From: Euzebyales bacterium
GTDB lineage: Bacteria > Actinomycetota > Nitriliruptoria > Euzebyales > JAHELV01
Assembly (NCBI GenBank): GCA_035461305.1
Contig: DATHVN010000237.1
Coordinates: 1-35,658, forward strand
Length of the DNA stretch: 35,658 nucleotides
Reading direction: 5' to 3'
Shown: in pieces, positions 1-29,211 of the stretch
Position numbering within the stretch: the stretch's first letter is position 1
How the letters are laid out: each line of letters opens with the position of its first letter
The notes under the pieces: model-generated
The model's database searches: none
Told to the model about the DNA's origin: nothing
What the model saw: only the letters and a program-made list of their open reading frames with translations
Position numbers and translations under genes: made by a program

Positions 1-500
1 GGGGGCAGGAATTCCGACCAGTAGACCGCGCCGGAAGGGCTAACGGTTGCGAACAAGGTGACCGGAACGTGCCACACCGCCCACATCGCGCCCACGATGA
101 GCCCCGTGGTGAGGACGCTGTGACGCGGCCTTACCGTGGGCACAGCGAATCCGGTCCAGCCCAACTCCTCCGAGAAGGCGCCCACAGCACCGATCGTGAG
201 CCCGGACAGAAGCAGGGCGCCGATGTTGTCTGTGGTGTAGGCGTCGGGGACAAAGACCGGGGAGATGAGCGAAAGCGCGAGGAGAATGGGCATCACCAGA
301 AGCGGCACGGTCGCGAGAGCGACCGCGTACCAGCGGGCGCCCACCCGCCACCTGAGCAACCGTGATCGGAACTCGCGAAGACCCGTTCTTCCGTGGACGA
401 AGGCGGTCATCAACGGGCCCGCCACGCTGGGGCCGGCAAACAATGCCAACCATCGCGCGGTCCGGGTTCGCCAGTGGCTCAGCGCAGGGTCGGCGGCCAC
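1..500 (-). CDS. CPBP-family intramembrane metalloprotease, partial (C-terminus beyond window)
   Basis: The reverse strand is open from position 1 to a stop at 522-524 and encodes a hydrophobic protein. It carries the CPBP (Abi, Rce1-like) signature: EELGWTGFAVP (about 181-139), with the paired glutamates that bind metal, and then GAMWAVWHVPV (about 93-61) with the second-motif histidine. Before the EE motif are one or two membrane segments and an arginine-rich loop (RSRLLRWRVGARWY), both typical of the family. The C-terminal part lies outside the window. The start is uncertain. The only reasonable in-frame start after the stop is GTG at 500-498, which gives a protein lacking the usual first membrane segment, so the 5' end may be truncated, as in other genes of this decayed region. 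CPBP proteins are membrane proteases linked to prenyl-protein processing or bacteriocin immunity; the substrate here is unknown. Confidence 0.8.
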   Translation of the reverse strand, partial: MAADPALSHWRTRTARWLALFAGPSVAGPLMTAFVHGRTGLREFRSRLLRWRVGARWYAVALATVPLLVMPILLALSLISPVFVPDAYTTDNIGALLLSGLTIGAVGAFSEELGWTGFAVPTVRPRHSVLTTGLIVGAMWAVWHVPVTLFATVSPSGAVYWSEFLP

Positions 501-815
501 ACTTGCCCCGCGAATCGTGGCTTACCGCACCTTCAGTATCGGACAACCGAGCACGGCACGTCAGGGTCGTCCGCACGGTTCGCAGGGCCCTTCGGCATGG
601 CAATCCGTCTGCATGAAGTCACGGCTCATCGCTCACCGCTCCCGGAGTGACCTCAGCCCATCGCATATCCGGAATTACCGTCGGGCTTGTTCGGTGTACT
701 CCGGACCCGTCCCGTTCACGTCGATCGCCGGCATGACAAGGTGCTTGTGACGATCCAGGCTCGCAGTTCATCCGACCGCAGCCTCACGGGTGGGGCGTCA
801 GCGCCGCTTGCGGCG

Positions 816-18780: not shown

Positions 18781-20160
18781 TCAGCTGGTCGTGGTGAGGT
18801 CCAGTTCGACGGCGCGGTCGTACTCGTCGTCGATCAGCACAGGCGTTCGGCCGGCACGCGCCAGCAGCGACGCGGCGATCGAGGCGCGGTAGCCGGTGCG
18901 GCAGTGGACCCACACCTCGCCGGTCGGCACGTCGGCCATCCGACGCTCCAGTCGGTGCAGTGGCACGTGGACCGCGCCCTCGACGCGGCCCTCAGCCCAC
19001 TCGTCGTCGCGGCGTACGTCGAGGATCGCCGGCATGTCGCTGCCCCTGCGCACCGCGGCCAGCGCGGAGAAGTCGACGATGCGGTATGAGCCGCGTTCGC
19101 CGCCGTCGGCGTAGGCGTCGACGCCACCGGCCGCCGCCGCCGCGGGGCGGTCGATCCCGATGCGCACCAGCTGGCGCTGTGCCGCGGCGATCTCCTCCGG
19201 CGTGTCACCGACCAGCGTGATCGGCACGTTCCACGGCACCAGCCAGCCGACATACGTCACGAACGAATCGCTGAGCTCGACGTTGATCGTCCCCTGCAGG
19301 AAGTCGACCGCGTAGACCGTGCGGTCGCGCAGGTCGACGACCCACTCGCCGGCGTGGATGCGCGCCTGGATCTCGACCGCGTCCGCCTCGACAGGCGGCG
19401 ACAGATCGATCGGCTCGGGGCCCAGCCGGTTTCGGGGCGCCATGTGGACGTAGTAGCGGGGATAGGCATCGAGCCCACCGAGCAGGAGCTCGACGAACCT
19501 GTCCTCGTCCAGGGTGGTCAGGGCCATGTTCGCGCGACGCTCGTCACCGATGGTGGACATCTCGTCGCCATCGTCACCGTCGGCGTCGCTGGCCACCGAC
19601 GAGCAGAAGCTGCCGAAGCCGTGGGTCGGCAGCACGGCGACGTCGTCGGCCAGCAGGTCGGCGATCCTGCGGACCGATCGGTGCTGGCGCCGGGTGAGCT
19701 CCTCGGCCATGGCGCGCGAGATGAGGTCGGTCCGCCCGACCGTGCCGTACAGCATCGAGCCGCCAGTGAAGACCGCGACGTCGCGACCGTCGGCGTGCGC
19801 GACGTAGGACAGGTGGGTCGGGGTGTGGCCGGGTGTGTGAAGCGCTCTGATCGACAGGTCGTCGCCGATCTGCACGACGTCGCCGTCGATCAGCGTCTCG
19901 TGGTCGAAGTCGACCTCGTCGTCGGCGTTCAGGAGGTACGCGGCGCCGGTCGCGCGTGCCAGCTGGTAGCCACCCGTGACGTAGTCGTTGTGGATGTGGG
20001 TCTCGAACACGTGGGTGATGCGGACGCCACGCTCGTCCGCCAGGTCGAGCACGCGATCGATGTCGCGCTGCGGATCGACGACGGCGGCGACCGCGCCGTC
20101 GGTGATCAGGTAGCTGCGGTCGCCGAGGCTCGTCGTCTCGATGGTGATGATGTCAACCAC
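18781..20160 (-). CDS. MBL-fold persulfide-dioxygenase-like protein with two rhodanese domains
   Basis: A 459-residue protein from GTG 20160 with AGGAG 6 bases upstream. Residues 1-230 form an ETHE1-type metallo-beta-lactamase domain with the metal motif THIHNDYVTGG (His55, His57, Asp59), LHTPGHTPTHLSYV (second metal histidine) and a late histidine in LPTHGFGSFC. Members oxidise glutathione or other low-molecular-weight persulfides to sulfite with iron and O2. Residues about 265-350 are a degenerate rhodanese domain without an active cysteine. Residues about 365-455 are an active one, with Cys420 in VHCRTGYRAS. The gene follows sulP with an 8-base overlap and is divergent from the molybdoenzyme operon, so it probably feeds sulfite to it. 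Confidence 0.88.
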   Translation of the reverse strand: MVDIITIETTSLGDRSYLITDGAVAAVVDPQRDIDRVLDLADERGVRITHVFETHIHNDYVTGGYQLARATGAAYLLNADDEVDFDHETLIDGDVVQIGDDLSIRALHTPGHTPTHLSYVAHADGRDVAVFTGGSMLYGTVGRTDLISRAMAEELTRRQHRSVRRIADLLADDVAVLPTHGFGSFCSSVASDADGDDGDEMSTIGDERRANMALTTLDEDRFVELLLGGLDAYPRYYVHMAPRNRLGPEPIDLSPPVEADAVEIQARIHAGEWVVDLRDRTVYAVDFLQGTINVELSDSFVTYVGWLVPWNVPITLVGDTPEEIAAAQRQLVRIGIDRPAAAAAGGVDAYADGGERGSYRIVDFSALAAVRRGSDMPAILDVRRDDEWAEGRVEGAVHVPLHRLERRMADVPTGEVWVHCRTGYRASIAASLLARAGRTPVLIDDEYDRAVELDLTTTS

Positions 20161-21705
20161 GCTGCGCTCCTTGCTGTTCGTGGCGGCGGCCGCGCTGCTC
20201 ACCGCAACGGTCGGGCATGGTGGGCTCGTCGAGCGTCCGTTCAACGAGCGGGCCGGACCGGTCAAGCGCGTGCAGCGCCGTCGGCACGTCCGGATCGATC
20301 CGCCCCGCCAGCGTCGCGGCCACACCGGCCCGCTGCAGAGCATCGTGGACCGGGCCGCGCACCGTGGCCGGTCGGAGCTGCACGGAGGGCGAGGCCAGCG
20401 CGCGGTCGAGCGCGGCGACGGCGTGCACGCCGGCCGCGTCGATGGCGCCGACGGCGCTCATGTCAGCGATCATCGCGTCCGTATCGGGCCGGCCGGCCAG
20501 CAGGCCCTCGATCCACGTCTCGACGTGCCGGCTGTTGGCGTAGAACAACGGGCCGTCGACGCACACGATCGCGACCCGTGGGTCGCCGACGGTGTCGTAA
20601 CGGTCCCGGTTTGCGGTAGATGTCCGCACCCCGCACCCGCCCGAGCTCAGCGATGTGCGGCCGACCGGTGCGCACGAGGAACAACGCGATGCTGACGACG
20701 ATGCCGGCGACGATGCCCTGCTCGACGCCGACGACCACCGTGACCAGCGCCGTGAGCAGCCACGTGGCTCCGTCCCAGTGGTCGACCCGCCAGGTGCTTC
20801 GCGCGTCGACCACGTCGACAGACCGACGACGGCGACCACGACGACGGCCGCCGGCACCACAGTGGGCAGGACCGCCAGCGCAGGCGCGGCCACCGCCACG
20901 GCCAACGCGACGACCGCCGCGGTCACGAGGCCGGCCGGGGGCGTCCGCGCACGCGCATCGAAGTTGACGGCGGTGCGTGAGAACCCACCGGAGACGGGGA
21001 ACGCCTGGAACGGCCCGGCCGCCAGGTTGGCACCGCTGCTGGCGAACAGCTTCTGCGTGGCGTCGACCGGCTGGTGCATCCGCACGGCCAGAGCGCGGGC
21101 CACGCTGATGCCCTCCAGGTAGGCCAGCAGCGCGATCGTGGCCGCGCCCGGCAGCAGCGCGGTGGCGGCCGGGGGATCGATCCCTCGCAGTGACGGCATC
21201 GGCAGCCCCGCCGGCACCGTGACGAGCACGGCGATGCCCGCAGCCTCGAGACCCAGCACCACGATCGCGAGGCCGGCACCGAGCACGACCAGCAGGGCGA
21301 CCGGGGGGCGCGAGCGGCGCCACCGGGCGAGTCCGAGGAGGGCGACCGCCAGGACGCCGAGCACGGTGGGACCGTGCGCCTCGGGGAGCTGCCGGGCGAC
21401 GGCGGAGATCCGTGCGATGATGGTCTCGGCGAGCAGCGCTGCCAGGCCGGCGTACGAGGCCGGATCGCCACCCGCGAGCGGCCCGACCGTCGATGTGGTC
21501 AGCAGCGACACGATGACCACCGGCCCGACGTGCCGAGCACGGCGTAGACCACGAGCGGCACCGTGGCCGTGACCGCCGACATGCCGGCGAGCGCCGCGTA
21601 CGCCATGGGCCTGGGGATCAGCATGGCCGCGACGGTGAGCCCGGCGACCACGTCGTCCCGCAGACTGACGCGGTCCAAGCGGCGAAGCCAGTCGATCAGC
21701 GGCAC
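20153..21705 (-). pseudogene. SulP-family anion transporter with STAS domain, three frame breaks
   Basis: Start GTG 21705 (GAGGG upstream). Frame A reads RLDRVSLRDDVVAGLTVAAM then YAVLGTSG. Near 21527 it must change to frame B, which reads GPVVIVSLLTTSTVGPLAGG and onwards through the membrane domain to VVVVAVVGL. Near 20819 one G is missing (CT for CTGG), and a third frame carries VDVVDARSTWRVDHWDGATW to RVRGADIYR. Near 20611 one extra A (AAA for AA) returns the sense to frame B (NRDRYDTVGDPRVAIVCVDG), whose C-terminus is a STAS domain with ADMSAVGAIDAAGVHAVAAL. Apart from these breaks the protein is complete and well conserved: 10-12 membrane segments, then STAS. SulP proteins carry sulfate, bicarbonate or other anions. 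It is either very recently inactivated or affected by sequence errors. Confidence 0.85.
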
Positions 21706-21753
21706 ATGCCCTCACGCGGCCGGATGGGGTGAGATCGCCGGCCACCATGGCGG

Positions 21754-21842: not shown

Positions 21843-23444
21843 ATGAGCGTGGTGCCGGAGGGTCCGATCCGGGCGCTGCCGCTGGTCGACGGCGAGGCGC
21901 GCAGCCCCCGTCTGGTCAAGGTGCTCGACCAGACGACGTGCATCGGATGCCACGCCTGCACGACGGCGTGCAAGTCTGAGCACGAGGTCCCGGTCGGCGT
22001 CACGCGCACCTACGTCAAGGCGGTCGACGTGGGCGAGTTCCCGCACGTTCGCCGCAGGTTCCAGGTGACCAGGTGCAACCAGTGCGCAGACGCACCGTGC
22101 GTGACCGCCTGTCCCACGTCCGCGATGTTCCAACGCGCCGACGGCATCGTCGACGTCGACAAGCAGGCCTGCATCGGCTGCAGGGCCTGCATGGCGGCGT
22201 GCCCGTACGACGCGATCTTCATCAACCCCGACGACCACGCAGCCGAGAAGTGCAACCTCTGTGCGCACCGGATCGACATGGGCCTCGAGCCGGCGTGCGT
22301 CGTCGTGTGCCCTGTCGGGGCCATCCTGGTCGGCGACGTCAACGATCCGATGTCGGCGGTCGCCCAGGCGATCGGGCGCAGCCCGACGGCCGTGCGGCGG
22401 CCCGAGAAGGGCACCCGACCCGGGGTCCACTACAAGGGCGCGAGTCAGGCGACGCTGGACCCGCTCGCCGCCCACCGCCCCGACGTCGACATCTTCGCGT
22501 GGGCCCAGCAGCACCCGCAGACCGACCCGCACCGCATCAACGCCGGCGTGCCGATCGACCCCGTCGACCAGCGCGACGGCACGGGCGCGCCCACCACGTC
22601 GTCGGCCGCGGCGCTGCTCAGCTACGACGTCGGCCACGCCGTGCCGTGGGACTGGCGCGTCGGCCTGTACACGTGGACCAAGTCGATCGCCGCGGGCGTG
22701 TACCTGGTCGCCGCCACGCTCGTGCTGCTGGGACGGCTCGACGGCGACGGGGCGCTGTGGCGCTGGGTCGTTCCCCTGCTCGCCGTGACCTTCCTGGCGC
22801 TCACCGGGGCGATCCTCATCTGGGACCTCGAGCACCCGGCGCGCTTCCACTACGTCTTCACCCGCCCCCAGTGGCGCAGCTGGCTGGTCCGTGGTGGCGT
22901 GATCATCACCTCGTTCGGCGCCGTGCTCGCCGTCCACCTCGCGCTCGCCGCGGTCGGAGCCACGGACGCGCAGACCGACCTCACGGCGCTGGGCGTCCCG
23001 GCGGCGCTGCTCACCGCCGTGTACACGGCGTTCCTCTTCGCCCAGGCCCGGGCGCGTGACCTGTGGCAAAGCCCGCTGCTGCCACCGCACTTCGCGGTGC
23101 AGGCTGTGCTCGCCGGCGCCGCGGTGCTGCTGCCGCTCACCGCGTGGCTCGCGCCCGATTCGGCCCCAACCGTCGCGCTTGCGCTGGCCGGTGGCGCAGT
23201 CGTGCATCTGCTGCTCGTCGCGGGCGAGATCACGCTGACCCATCCGACCCACCACGCACGGCTGGCGGCCCACGCCATGACCGCCGGACGCCACGCTCGG
23301 CTGTTCCGGGCCGGCCTCGTGCTGGTCGCGCTCGGGGCCGCCGCGCCGTGGCTCGGGATCGGCGTCGCCCCGCTGGCACTGGCCGGCCTGCTCGCCCACG
23401 AGCACGTGCACGTCCAGGCCGGGCAGTCGGTGCCGCTCGCGTGA
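21843..23444 (+). CDS. fused four-cluster ferredoxin / NrfD-type membrane subunit (SoeB-SoeC-like)
   Basis: A 533-residue fusion. Residues about 25-165 are a DMSO-reductase-type electron-transfer subunit with four [4Fe-4S] motifs: C33-x2-C36-x2-C39-x3-C43, C78-x2-C81-x4-C86-x3-C90, C110-x2-C113-x2-C116-x3-C120 and C137-x2-C140-x11-C152-x3-C156. A polar linker spans about 170-270. From about 277, eight membrane segments follow, with WDLEHPARFHYVFTRPQWRS WLVRGG after helix 2. That is the NrfD/PsrC quinone-site region, and the protein ends with HVQAGQSVPLA. Normally these are two proteins. Fusion would fix the electron wire from the molybdoenzyme to the quinone pool. The start ATG 21843 has CGGAGCGG upstream. 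It precedes the molybdoenzyme by 39 bases. Confidence 0.92.
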   Translation: MSVVPEGPIRALPLVDGEARSPRLVKVLDQTTCIGCHACTTACKSEHEVPVGVTRTYVKAVDVGEFPHVRRRFQVTRCNQCADAPCVTACPTSAMFQRADGIVDVDKQACIGCRACMAACPYDAIFINPDDHAAEKCNLCAHRIDMGLEPACVVVCPVGAILVGDVNDPMSAVAQAIGRSPTAVRRPEKGTRPGVHYKGASQATLDPLAAHRPDVDIFAWAQQHPQTDPHRINAGVPIDPVDQRDGTGAPTTSSAAALLSYDVGHAVPWDWRVGLYTWTKSIAAGVYLVAATLVLLGRLDGDGALWRWVVPLLAVTFLALTGAILIWDLEHPARFHYVFTRPQWRSWLVRGGVIITSFGAVLAVHLALAAVGATDAQTDLTALGVPAALLTAVYTAFLFAQARARDLWQSPLLPPHFAVQAVLAGAAVLLPLTAWLAPDSAPTVALALAGGAVVHLLLVAGEITLTHPTHHARLAAHAMTAGRHARLFRAGLVLVALGAAAPWLGIGVAPLALAGLLAHEHVHVQAGQSVPLA

Positions 23445-23483: not shown

Positions 23484-26429
23484 ATGGAACGTGACCTCGA
23501 CGGGTTGAACGCCCGCGTGTCGGCAGCGCGGGCCGCGACCGAGGCACGCGGTGAGACCTTCTACCCCGGACCCAGCAGGGTGCACCTGGCCATGTTCCCA
23601 CCGAAGGAACGGTGGGACGACTGGGTCGAGTACGACGCGAGGACATGGCCACGTAAGGACGAGCGGCGCTTCATGCTGGTGCCGACGACCTGCTTCAACT
23701 GCGAGGCGGCGTGCGGCCTGCTCGCCTACGTCGACCGCGAGGCGCTGCAGATCCGCAGGTTCGAGGGCAACCCCGAGGCGCCCGGATCACGCGGCCGCAA
23801 CTGCGCGAAGGGACCCGCCACCATCACCCAGGTGACCGACCCCGACCGCATCCTGCATCCGCTGCGCCGCGTCGGGGAACGCGGTGGCGGACGGTGGGAG
23901 CGCGTGTCGTGGGACGACGCGCTCGACGGCATCGCCGCGCGCATCCGTGCCGCCATCGTCGAGGAACGCCGCGACGAGGTCGTCTACCACGTTGGGCGCC
24001 CGGGCGAGCTCGGGTTCACCGAGGAGGTCCTGGCGGCTTGGGGCGTCGACGGCCACAACTCCCACACCAACGTCTGCTCCTCGGGGGCGCGTGCGGGCTT
24101 TCAGTTCTGGTGCGGACAGGATCGGCCGAGCCCCGACCACGCCAACGCCGAGGTCATCCTGCTGATCTCCAGCCACCTGGAGGCCGGGCACTACTTCAAC
24201 CCCCACGCGCAGCGCATCATGGAGGGCCGGGTCAACGGCGCGAAGCTGATCGTCATGGACGTCCGGCTGTCCAACACGGCGACCCACGCCACCCACTGGC
24301 TGGCACCCTGGCCGGGATCGGAGGCGGCGATCTGCCTCGCGATCGCGAACCACCTCATCCAGACCGGCGCGTACGATCGGGAGTTCGTCCGTCGCTGGTG
24401 GAACTGGGAGGAGTACCTGCGGGCCGAGCACCCCGACCGCGACCCGGCGTTCGAGGTGTTCACCGAGCTGCTCGGGACGTTGTACGCCGAGTACACCTTC
24501 GCGTTCGCCGCGGCCGAGTCCGGCGTCGACGTCGCGACCCTGGAAGCCGTGGCCGCCGACGTGGCGGGCGCTGGCAGGCGGCTGTCGACCCACAACTGGC
24601 GGTCGGCTGCCGCGGGCAACGAAGGCGGGTGGCAGGTGGCCCGCACGCTGTTCCTGCTCAACGCGCTGCTCGGTGCCGTCGCGGTGCCCGGCGGGTTCTA
24701 CCCGAACGGCTGGAACAAGGTGTCACCGAAGACGCCGGTCAACCCAGACCGTCCCGCGGTCTGGAACGACCTCCACCTGCCGCTGGAGTACCCGCTGGCC
24801 ATGTACGAGCTGTCGTTCCTGCTGCCACACTTCCTGGCCGAGGGCCGCGGCCGCATCGACACGTACTTCACGCGGGTCTACAACCCGGTATGGACCAACC
24901 CAGACGGGTTCAGCTGGATCGAGGCGCTGACCGACCACGAGAAGGTGGGCTGTCACGTGGCGCTGACGCCGACGTGGAACGAGACGGCCTACTTCGCCGA
25001 CTACGTCCTGCCGATGGGGCACAGTTCCGAGCGCCACGACCTCGTCAGCGGCGAGCAGTACGACGGGCAGTGGATCGGGTTCCGCCAGCCCGTGCTGCGT
25101 GTCGCACGCGAACGGCTGGGCGAGGCGGTGACCGACACCCGCCAGACCAACCCGGGCGAGGTGTGGGAGGAGAACGAGTTCTGGATCGAGCTGACGTGGC
25201 GAATCGATCCCGACGGGTCACTGGGCGTCCGCCGCCACTACGAGGCACCCGACCGACCCGGCCAGAAGATGACGGTCGACGACTACTACGGCTGGGTGTT
25301 CAACCATGGCGTGCCGGGCCTGCCTGAGGCCGCCGCCGCGCAGGGGCTCACGCCGCTGGCCTACATGCGCCGCTACGGGGGCTTCGAGGTCAGCCGGGGC
25401 GTCGGGCAGATCCACGAGGAGCGGGTGCCCGACGCCGAGCTGGACGACGTCCGCGTCAGTGAGCTCGGTCGGGTCTACAGCCGGGCGCCGACGCCGGACA
25501 TGAGCTACGCGACGGGCGCGAGTCCCGACCCCGACGCCGAGGGCCGCCGCGCCGCGGGTGTCATGGTGAACGGGGTGGTGCGACGCGGGTTCCCGACCCC
25601 GTCAGGCCGTCTGGAGTTCTGGTCGTCGACGCTCGCGGCCTGGGGCTGGCGCGAGTACGCGCTGCCGACCTACATCCGCAGCCACGTGCACCCGGAGCGA
25701 CTGGCGGACGACGAGGTGCCGCTGATCTCGACGTTCCGGCTGCCCGTCCAGATCCACACCCGCAGTGCGAACGCCAAGTGGCTCAACGAGCTGGCTCACA
25801 CGAACCCGCTGTGGATCCATCCCAGCCACGCCCGCCGGCTCGACATCGTCACCGGCGATCTCGTCCGCGTCGAGACACGCGCCGGACACTACGTCGTCAA
25901 GGCATGGGTGACCGAGGGCATTCGTCCGGGCGTCGTCGCCTGCAGCCACCACATGGGCAGGTGGAAGCCGCGGGGCGAGACCGAGGGTCACGACCGACCG
26001 CGCCAGCGCATGCAGACGTCCGACGTGACGCTGGACAACCAGGGCAGCCGCTGGCGGATGGCTGACAGGTCGCCGCACCGGCCGACCGGCGACGACCCGG
26101 ACCTGCGTCGCATCTGGTGGTCCGACATCGGGGTGCACCAGAACATGACGTTCCCGGTGCATCCTGATCCGGTCTCGGGACAGCACTGCTGGCACCAGGC
26201 GGTGCGGATCCGTCCTGCCGGCCCGTCCGACGCCTACGGCGACGTCGTGGCCGACACCGATCGGATGCGCGAGATCTACCGCGAGTGGCTCGCGAAGACG
26301 CGGTCGGCCGCCATCGTCTCGCCCACCGGGGAGCGGCGCCCGCACTGGCTCCAGCGGCCGCTCCGGCCTCAGCGTGCGGCGTGGGCGCTGCCGCCCGACC
26401 GGGCACGAGCGCCGGACGCCGCCCAGTGA
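23484..26429 (+). CDS. molybdopterin oxidoreductase catalytic subunit (SoeA-like)
   Basis: A 981-residue bis-MGD enzyme. The N-terminal [4Fe-4S] cluster ligands are C70-x2-C73-x3-C77-x29-C107. The predicted Mo ligand is Cys198 in NSHTNVCSSGARAGFQFW. LISSHLEAGHYFNPHAQRIM, VMDVRLSNTATHATHWLAPW (cofactor) and a late domain IHTRSANAKWLNELAHTNPL with WIHPSHARRLDIVTGDLV (MGD-binding beta barrel) complete the family. There is no Tat signal, so the enzyme is predicted to be cytoplasmic. That argues for the sulfite-oxidising SoeA type and against periplasmic polysulfide or tetrathionate reductases. Its size is also near that of SoeA. Neighbours (Fe-S/NrfD fusion, chaperone, TauE exporter, persulfide dioxygenase) agree. 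ATG 23484 has GGAG upstream. The substrate remains inference. Confidence 0.88.
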   Translation: MERDLDGLNARVSAARAATEARGETFYPGPSRVHLAMFPPKERWDDWVEYDARTWPRKDERRFMLVPTTCFNCEAACGLLAYVDREALQIRRFEGNPEAPGSRGRNCAKGPATITQVTDPDRILHPLRRVGERGGGRWERVSWDDALDGIAARIRAAIVEERRDEVVYHVGRPGELGFTEEVLAAWGVDGHNSHTNVCSSGARAGFQFWCGQDRPSPDHANAEVILLISSHLEAGHYFNPHAQRIMEGRVNGAKLIVMDVRLSNTATHATHWLAPWPGSEAAICLAIANHLIQTGAYDREFVRRWWNWEEYLRAEHPDRDPAFEVFTELLGTLYAEYTFAFAAAESGVDVATLEAVAADVAGAGRRLSTHNWRSAAAGNEGGWQVARTLFLLNALLGAVAVPGGFYPNGWNKVSPKTPVNPDRPAVWNDLHLPLEYPLAMYELSFLLPHFLAEGRGRIDTYFTRVYNPVWTNPDGFSWIEALTDHEKVGCHVALTPTWNETAYFADYVLPMGHSSERHDLVSGEQYDGQWIGFRQPVLRVARERLGEAVTDTRQTNPGEVWEENEFWIELTWRIDPDGSLGVRRHYEAPDRPGQKMTVDDYYGWVFNHGVPGLPEAAAAQGLTPLAYMRRYGGFEVSRGVGQIHEERVPDAELDDVRVSELGRVYSRAPTPDMSYATGASPDPDAEGRRAAGVMVNGVVRRGFPTPSGRLEFWSSTLAAWGWREYALPTYIRSHVHPERLADDEVPLISTFRLPVQIHTRSANAKWLNELAHTNPLWIHPSHARRLDIVTGDLVRVETRAGHYVVKAWVTEGIRPGVVACSHHMGRWKPRGETEGHDRPRQRMQTSDVTLDNQGSRWRMADRSPHRPTGDDPDLRRIWWSDIGVHQNMTFPVHPDPVSGQHCWHQAVRIRPAGPSDAYGDVVADTDRMREIYREWLAKTRSAAIVSPTGERRPHWLQRPLRPQRAAWALPPDRARAPDAAQ

Positions 26430-28382: not shown

Positions 28383-28407
28383 CCGACGCATGGAGAGGAC
28401 CCCGCTG

Positions 28408-29211
28408 ATGGCCGGCGCCGAACCGCTGTGGGAGCAGGTGCTCAACGACATCAAGCGCAGGCTGGCGTCCGGTGAGATCCGCGACCGGTTCCCGACGGAC
28501 CGCGAGCTGGTCGAGACGTACGGCGTCAGCCGGCACACCGTGCGCGAAGCCGTCCGCCGCCTCCACGCCCTGGGTGTGATCGAACGCGAGCGCGGACGCG
28601 GCAGCATCGTCCGCCACACCGCGTTCGTCCAACCGCTGGGCACCCTCTACAGCCTGTTCCGCGAGATCGAGGCGCGAGGGGTCACCCAGCGGAGCACGGT
28701 CCTGTCCTTCGAAGCCTGCCCGGACCCCGTCGCCGCGGCCAGGTTCGGCCTGCCCGCCGACACCGCCATCGTCCACCTCGAACGCGTCCGGCGTGCAGGC
28801 GACCAGCCGCTGGCGCTCGACACCGCCTGGCTGCACCCCGAGGTCGGCCTGTCCGTCCTGGGCGCCGACATGACCCACACGGCCCTGTACGACGAGATAG
28901 AACGGCGCGCCGGCGTGCGGATCACCGGCGGCGAGGAGACCATCAGCGCGCGCATCCCCGACGCGCAACTGCGCGACGTGCTCGAACTCGAGGAGGACGA
29001 GGCGCTGTTGCGCATCGACCGGACCGGCGAGGCCGACGGGCGGGTCGTCGAGTGCCGCGTCACCCTGGTCCGGGCGTCGCTGTTCGCACTCGTCATGCGC
29101 TGGCCGAGCTACGGCGCGGTGACCTCGCGGTTCTCACCGGACGGCGACGGCGGCGGCGGGCTGTCCGCACCGCCCGCCGAGGACGGCGACAGCCCAGGCA
29201 CCATGGCCTGA
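28408..29211 (+). CDS. GntR/HutC-family transcriptional regulator
   Basis: A 267-residue regulator. The GntR winged helix spans 1-75 (LWEQVLNDIKRRLASGEI, then FPTDRELVETYGVSRHTVRE AVRRLHALGVI as separate helices). The UTRA ligand-binding domain spans about 85-245, with FEACPDPVAAARFGLPADTA, LERVRRAGDQPLALDTAWLH and the late VVECRVTLVRASLFALVMRW, the standard UTRA core with the E-x-R segment. A Gly/Pro-rich tail follows. I choose ATG 28408 over 28390 because GGAGAGGA lies about 10 bases upstream. Placed 25 bases after the DUF1634-like gene, it is probably cotranscribed and may control the operon. The ligand is unknown. Confidence 0.9.
   Translation: MAGAEPLWEQVLNDIKRRLASGEIRDRFPTDRELVETYGVSRHTVREAVRRLHALGVIERERGRGSIVRHTAFVQPLGTLYSLFREIEARGVTQRSTVLSFEACPDPVAAARFGLPADTAIVHLERVRRAGDQPLALDTAWLHPEVGLSVLGADMTHTALYDEIERRAGVRITGGEETISARIPDAQLRDVLELEEDEALLRIDRTGEADGRVVECRVTLVRASLFALVMRWPSYGAVTSRFSPDGDGGGGLSAPPAEDGDSPGTMA

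Follow-up and report, generated by a model that had tools for sequence, protein, structure and literature searches.

The characterised Psr, Ttr and Arr enzymes are outward-facing. SoeABC is known from Allochromatium and Aquifex, and it has been proposed also for Sulfobacillus and Acidithiobacillus. Reviews of the NrfD family treat the ferredoxin and the membrane anchor as separate subunits (PMC8076601). The group that protonates the quinone is Asp76 in Wolinella PsrC, and His65 in Aquifex SoeC and E. coli DmsC (PMC8076601). An inverted orientation of SoeC in the membrane has only been hypothesised (PMC8076601, PMC4378227).

We analysed a stretch of 35,658 nucleotides from a Euzebyales bacterium (contig DATHVN010000237.1; hereafter, the window), in which a ferredoxin part and an NrfD-type anchor are encoded as one protein, here called BC, next to the gene for a molybdoenzyme, here called A.

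Domain layout and quinone site of the fused chain

The ORF listing contained a single frame of 533 codons at 21843-23444 (+), with an ATG start and without an internal stop. The ORF, Pfam matches and homologous loci identify its product as a single-chain ferredoxin-NrfD protein of 533 amino acids. The initial annotation had seen four [4Fe-4S] motifs and eight NrfD-type helices in this one protein, with the electron wire and the quinone anchor on one chain directly upstream of the molybdoenzyme, and this description was borne out by the ORF, Pfam, AlphaFold2 and Foldseek. Pfam placed Fer4_11 at amino acids 73-165 (1.9e-22) and NrfD (PF03916) at 266-496 (5.8e-13), each match exceeding its gathering score. 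DmsC gave no Pfam match on the anchor, where NrfD was matched instead.

The B part (amino acids 22-200; 21906-22442, +) is of the PsrB/NrfC type with four [4Fe-4S] motifs and matched 2vpw_B in phmmer (E 4.6e-48); in Foldseek, the N-terminal half of BC matched the same PsrB chain at 41% identity. The cluster cysteines are at 33, 36, 39 and 43; 78, 81, 86 and 90; 110, 113, 116 and 120; and 137, 140, 152 and 156. All 16 were invariant in an alignment of 49 sequences, so that, together with the PsrB homology, BC has the four-cluster ferredoxin part of a complex iron-sulfur molybdoenzyme (CISM).

The C part (amino acids 263-533; 22629-23441, +) is an eight-helix quinone module of the NrfD/PsrC type by Pfam, AlphaFold2 and Foldseek. 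AlphaFold2 predicted membrane helices at 271-295, 304-328, 347-371, 381-400, 413-436, 438-464, 485-498 and 501-529, mostly with pLDDT >90; the model was poor in the B half, and the docking of B on C is not visible in it. When the NrfD half alone was compared with the PDB, phmmer gave no match at E <= 1, but the fold search matched PsrC (2vpw_C, TMt 0.72).

Three elements of a quinone site were recognised in this module. Asp328 (22824-22826, +) is invariant and aligns with TtrC Asp75, the position of the quinone-protonating Asp76 of Wolinella PsrC. Tyr394-Thr395 (23022-23027, +), also invariant, match by motif Tyr159-Thr160 in the quinone site of the Wolinella protein. In helix 1, Tyr276 and Lys280 (22668-22682, +) are both invariant in the fused chains; Lys280 was present also in Sulfurovum and absent from the other split anchors compared. 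The C part likewise has the marks of a CISM anchor, namely an NrfD fold of eight or more helices and the quinone-site residues Asp328, Tyr394 and Thr395. BC is best explained as the subunit that transfers electrons and anchors the complex in the membrane, in a CISM encoded by two genes.

The label SoeC, which the initial annotation had given to the anchor, fared less well. Pfam assigns the anchor to NrfD rather than to DmsC, and the position of His65 in Aquifex SoeC is occupied by Asp328, as mapped via TtrC Asp75. The quinone site is thus of the PsrC type, and the name SoeC is doubtful and not established.

Distribution and frame continuity

The BC chain was present in three congeneric genomes at 76-78% identity. 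A scan of species genomes, from which 80 loci were kept, found it at 48-68% identity in Actinomycetota, Acidobacteriota, Gemmatimonadota, Chloroflexota, Planctomycetota, Myxococcota and Bacillota; the set of 104 loci spans these seven phyla and haloarchaea. Isolates with the fused chain include Mycolicibacterium chlorophenolicum, Amycolatopsis acididurans and Alicyclobacillus. Full-length BC was encoded in one frame at 101 of the 104 loci, and the other three were truncated by contig ends. The A gene lay downstream of BC on the same strand at 97 of the 104, usually with 12-150 nt between the BC stop and the A start. Across 296 evenly sampled Actinomycetota genomes, A (counted at E <= 1e-60) was detected in 33 and fused BC in 33; the two lists of genomes were identical, with both genes on one contig in 32.

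Fused chains are also present in annotated records, such as those of Rhodococcus jostii RHA1 (WP_050787739.1), Thermomicrobium roseum (WP_012642954.1) and the archaeon Natrinema halophilum (WP_343233126.1), all three on annotated plasmid records. These are 38-47% identical and are followed by the same molybdoenzyme gene. Their public annotation is generic: '4Fe-4S dicluster domain-containing protein' or 'NrfD/PsrC family molybdoenzyme membrane anchor subunit'. A search of a phage collection gave short ferredoxin matches only. A full-text literature search, with subscription journals mostly outside its scope, turned up no account of Fer4 and NrfD joined in a single chain next to a molybdoenzyme.

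An oddity of this one genome was rejected, with the same chain found in the congeneric genomes, the species scan and the Actinomycetota sample. In a widespread molybdoenzyme subfamily, of which we found no functional study, the fused chain is the rule. As a finding in one genome, the fusion is ordinary; it had been proposed as unusual, with the proviso that proof of its being standard in the family would overturn the proposal, and it is standard at 101 of 104 loci and in the identical sets of 33 Actinomycetota genomes.

Between the two parts, amino acids 201-262 (22443-22628, +) form a linker with weak conservation and low model confidence, which is coding over its whole length. It has about 60 residues, and not the roughly 100 first estimated: homology to PsrB ends near residue 200 and the NrfD part begins near 262. 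The aligned span 200-265 had a median of 55 amino acids (range 49-136) in 92 sequences. GC content at the three codon positions was 0.75/0.53/0.98 in the linker, and 0.66/0.52/0.93 and 0.79/0.52/0.93 on the flanking sides. The frame through the linker is real, because codon-position GC is continuous and the congeneric genomes keep a single frame at 76-78% identity; a stop or frame change there, raised earlier as a possibility, was looked for and none was found. The antisense frame is also open across the BC stretch, which is expected at so high a GC content and has no bearing on the fused chain.

The draft source genome is split into 237 contigs, and the adjacent SulP gene is disrupted by frame changes, so one might suppose that an error of sequencing or assembly removed the stop codon separating soeB from soeC and so produced the fusion. 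The same single frame in 101 loci, isolates and finished plasmids among them, and the unbroken GC pattern by codon position leave this explanation a negligible chance. With the fused frame conserved in independent records, we rejected a frameshift or assembly artefact.

Orientation, gene neighbours and origin

The A gene (23484-26429, +) encodes a molybdopterin oxidoreductase of 981 amino acids without a Tat signal, with an N-terminal Fe4S4 motif from Cys70 and a candidate Mo-ligand, Cys198 (SHTNVC). Pfam matched PF00384, PF01568 and PF04879. The N-terminal CxxCxxxC...C motif, as in a CISM catalytic subunit, was present in 73 of 73 A proteins. Matches to models of PhsA, ArrA, PsrA and the DMSO-reductase family were all below cut-off, and the nearest solved relatives were weak matches to ArrA and PsrA. 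The A stop codon overlaps the ATG of a TorD-like chaperone gene (Nitrate_red_del, PF02613; 26429-27289, +).

Upstream of BC, Pfam identified a protein with a metallo-beta-lactamase fold and a rhodanese domain, a probable persulfide dioxygenase (18781-20343, -). A SulP-type anion (sulfate) permease gene (20237-21708, -) is broken into pieces in the assembly; it is intact in a congeneric genome (L112 11148-12872), and either gene decay or an error of assembly may account for the broken copy. Among the 96 loci with flanks, the neighbourhood of BC contained a persulfide-dioxygenase-like gene in 26, SulP in 15, DsrE in 12, TusA in 9 and TorD in 46. In the genome of the window, the dioxygenase-like gene and SulP each have just one further full copy, so that chance would place each of them at less than one locus. 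In Rhodococcus jostii RHA1 the gene order is DsrE-TusA-BC-A. Apparent SulP matches antisense to every BC gene were discarded as BC antisense only, the SulP ORF having been overextended at its start. A GntR/UTRA regulator gene lies downstream of the molybdoenzyme operon (28390-29211, +), with a similar regulator in 10 of the 96 loci; as GntR families are common, this may be chance. Elsewhere in the window of this actinobacterial draft genome, a c-di-GMP-II-GCG riboswitch aptamer was found at 451-534 (-), with 50.3 bits against an Rfam gathering score of 47.9.

No Tat-like motif was found in the A proteins beside fused chains (0 of 73). Split relatives, in which B and C are separate adjacent genes, include Sulfurovum mangrovi and Azoarcus sp. 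KH32C, both on annotated plasmids and both with the order B-C-A-TorD. A Tat signal was present in A of all seven split relatives with a readable N-terminus (Azoarcus, Sulfurovum, L104, L105, L120, L121 and L122); the Sulfurovum motif, SRRSFLKG, precedes a frameshift in its record. On this Sulfurovum plasmid (L097 6010-9178) the molybdoenzyme gene is frame-broken and no gene is listed, the Tat signal lying upstream in another frame.

Lys and Arg in the NrfD loops were more numerous on the ferredoxin (near) side than on the far side in each of 42 fused chains (mean 8.8 versus 1.0), and in all 92 of a larger fused set. Of 11 split or TtrC anchors none had a near-side excess; eight were clearly opposite and three were near-ties. 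Because A has no Tat signal and the charges are reversed, we infer a cytoplasm-facing arrangement of the fused complexes, in which the NrfD module would be upside down and the N-terminus of the C part would lie in the cytoplasm.

As to the substrate, persulfide oxidation by persulfide dioxygenases yields sulfite. Since persulfide oxidation makes sulfite, and given the neighbouring genes, cytoplasmic oxidation of sulfite to quinone with export of sulfate is the best reading; sulfite oxidation is a likely function that rests on gene neighbours, and we know of no measured substrate for any member with a fused chain. We put at about two in three the probability of a cytoplasm-facing two-gene A-BC complex with an inverted NrfD module, most likely a sulfite:quinone oxidoreductase. 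Sulfite would be supplied by the adjacent persulfide dioxygenase, electrons would run from the Fe4S4 cluster of A along the four B-part clusters to a quinone at the NrfD part of BC, and sulfate would leave via SulP. If this holds, many Actinomycetota, Acidobacteriota, Gemmatimonadota and haloarchaea would have a probable direct sulfite:quinone oxidoreductase that now carries a generic name.

The Asp328 quinone site, unlike that of characterised SoeC, counts against this reading. The same architecture and orientation could instead serve polysulfide, thiosulfate, tetrathionate or arsenite as the substrate of A, or A could act as a reductase; the PsrC/Ttr-like quinone site is consistent with this, as are the matches of A to PhsA, ArrA, PsrA and DMSO-reductase-family models, all below cut-off. 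However, A has no Tat signal, whereas the characterised enzymes of these types (Psr, Ttr, Arr) work on the outer side, and the neighbours indicate persulfide oxidation and the handling of sulfite and sulfate, so we consider another substrate a lesser possibility, though one to be taken seriously. It is improbable that the whole complex faces outward like PsrABC, with export by an undetected route and a misleading charge pattern. Such a route might be suspected from the Tat signals of the split relatives and from dual Sec-Tat fusions such as NapH-NapG (PMC5449189), but the lack of a Tat-like motif in every one of the 73 A proteins, the short gap between BC and A, and the reversal of charges in each of the 42 chains argue against it.

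The trees bear on the origin of the fusion. In the C tree the fused sequences grouped in a single clade (SH-aLRT 93), and the split Sulfurovum protein was its sister (joint branch 99); in the B tree the fused sequences and Sulfurovum together made up one clade (98). Long branches blur the placement of Sulfurovum. A single fusion event would fit both trees, and there was no sign of repeated independent fusion. Adjacent B and C genes may have been joined in a single event that either followed or accompanied the loss of Tat export. Fusion would be tolerated once export was lost, because a folded B exported by Tat is hard to tie to an anchor inserted by Sec; the linker would merely hold the wire next to its quinone site. 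Loss of Tat, charge reversal and fusion were correlated once, in what is essentially one transition, and a causal order among them is suggested rather than demonstrated. We give even odds to the broader proposal that the fused chains are an undescribed, widespread class of cytoplasm-facing molybdoenzymes with NrfD upside down, in which loss of Tat permitted fusion and fusion marks the orientation of NrfD. A covalent ferredoxin-anchor chain free of export signals would fix the orientation of the anchor and make the hypothesis of SoeC inversion experimentally testable.

Comparison with known systems

Natural fusion of subunits in a quinone/Fe-S complex has a parallel in the fused NapH-NapG polyferredoxin of MLMS-1 (PMC5449189), and the ActB chains of Alternative Complex III, of about 930-1040 residues, also carry a ferredoxin domain. 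In both, other parts are joined than in BC, and the NapH-NapG fusion requires both Sec and Tat. A separate two-gene complex was seen in related Actinomycetota, where a ferredoxin-rich protein with a terminal PsrB-like domain lies beside an NrfD-molybdopterin fusion of 1160-1490 amino acids (L099 5173-11652; L100 3800-10241; L101 1511-7780, -; L102 6216-11627; L103 2506-8850, -; L124 6979-13452, -). In five of these six fusions an internal RRR motif (for example, RRRFL) directly precedes a hydrophobic stretch between the domains, resembling dual Sec-Tat proteins such as Sco3746 (PMC5449189).

With PsrABC of Thermus thermophilus (2vpw), BC shares a B part homologous end to end with PsrB and a C part with the eight-helix PsrC fold; with Wolinella PsrC, it shares the invariant Asp, Tyr and Thr at the quinone-site positions. 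In PsrABC, however, PsrB and PsrC are separate and the catalytic subunit is exported by Tat and faces outside, whereas here there is one chain, A has no Tat motif and the charges are reversed.

SoeABC (PMC8076601, PMC4378227) is similar in having a molybdoenzyme without a signal peptide that faces the cytoplasm, a four-cluster B subunit, an NrfD-like C subunit and a setting of sulfur oxidation; the fused complexes agree with it in lacking Tat-like motifs (0 of 73) and in the near/far charges, from which their cytoplasmic side is deduced. They differ from it in that SoeB and SoeC are separate proteins and BC is a single chain, and in that Aquifex SoeC has His65 where BC has Asp328.
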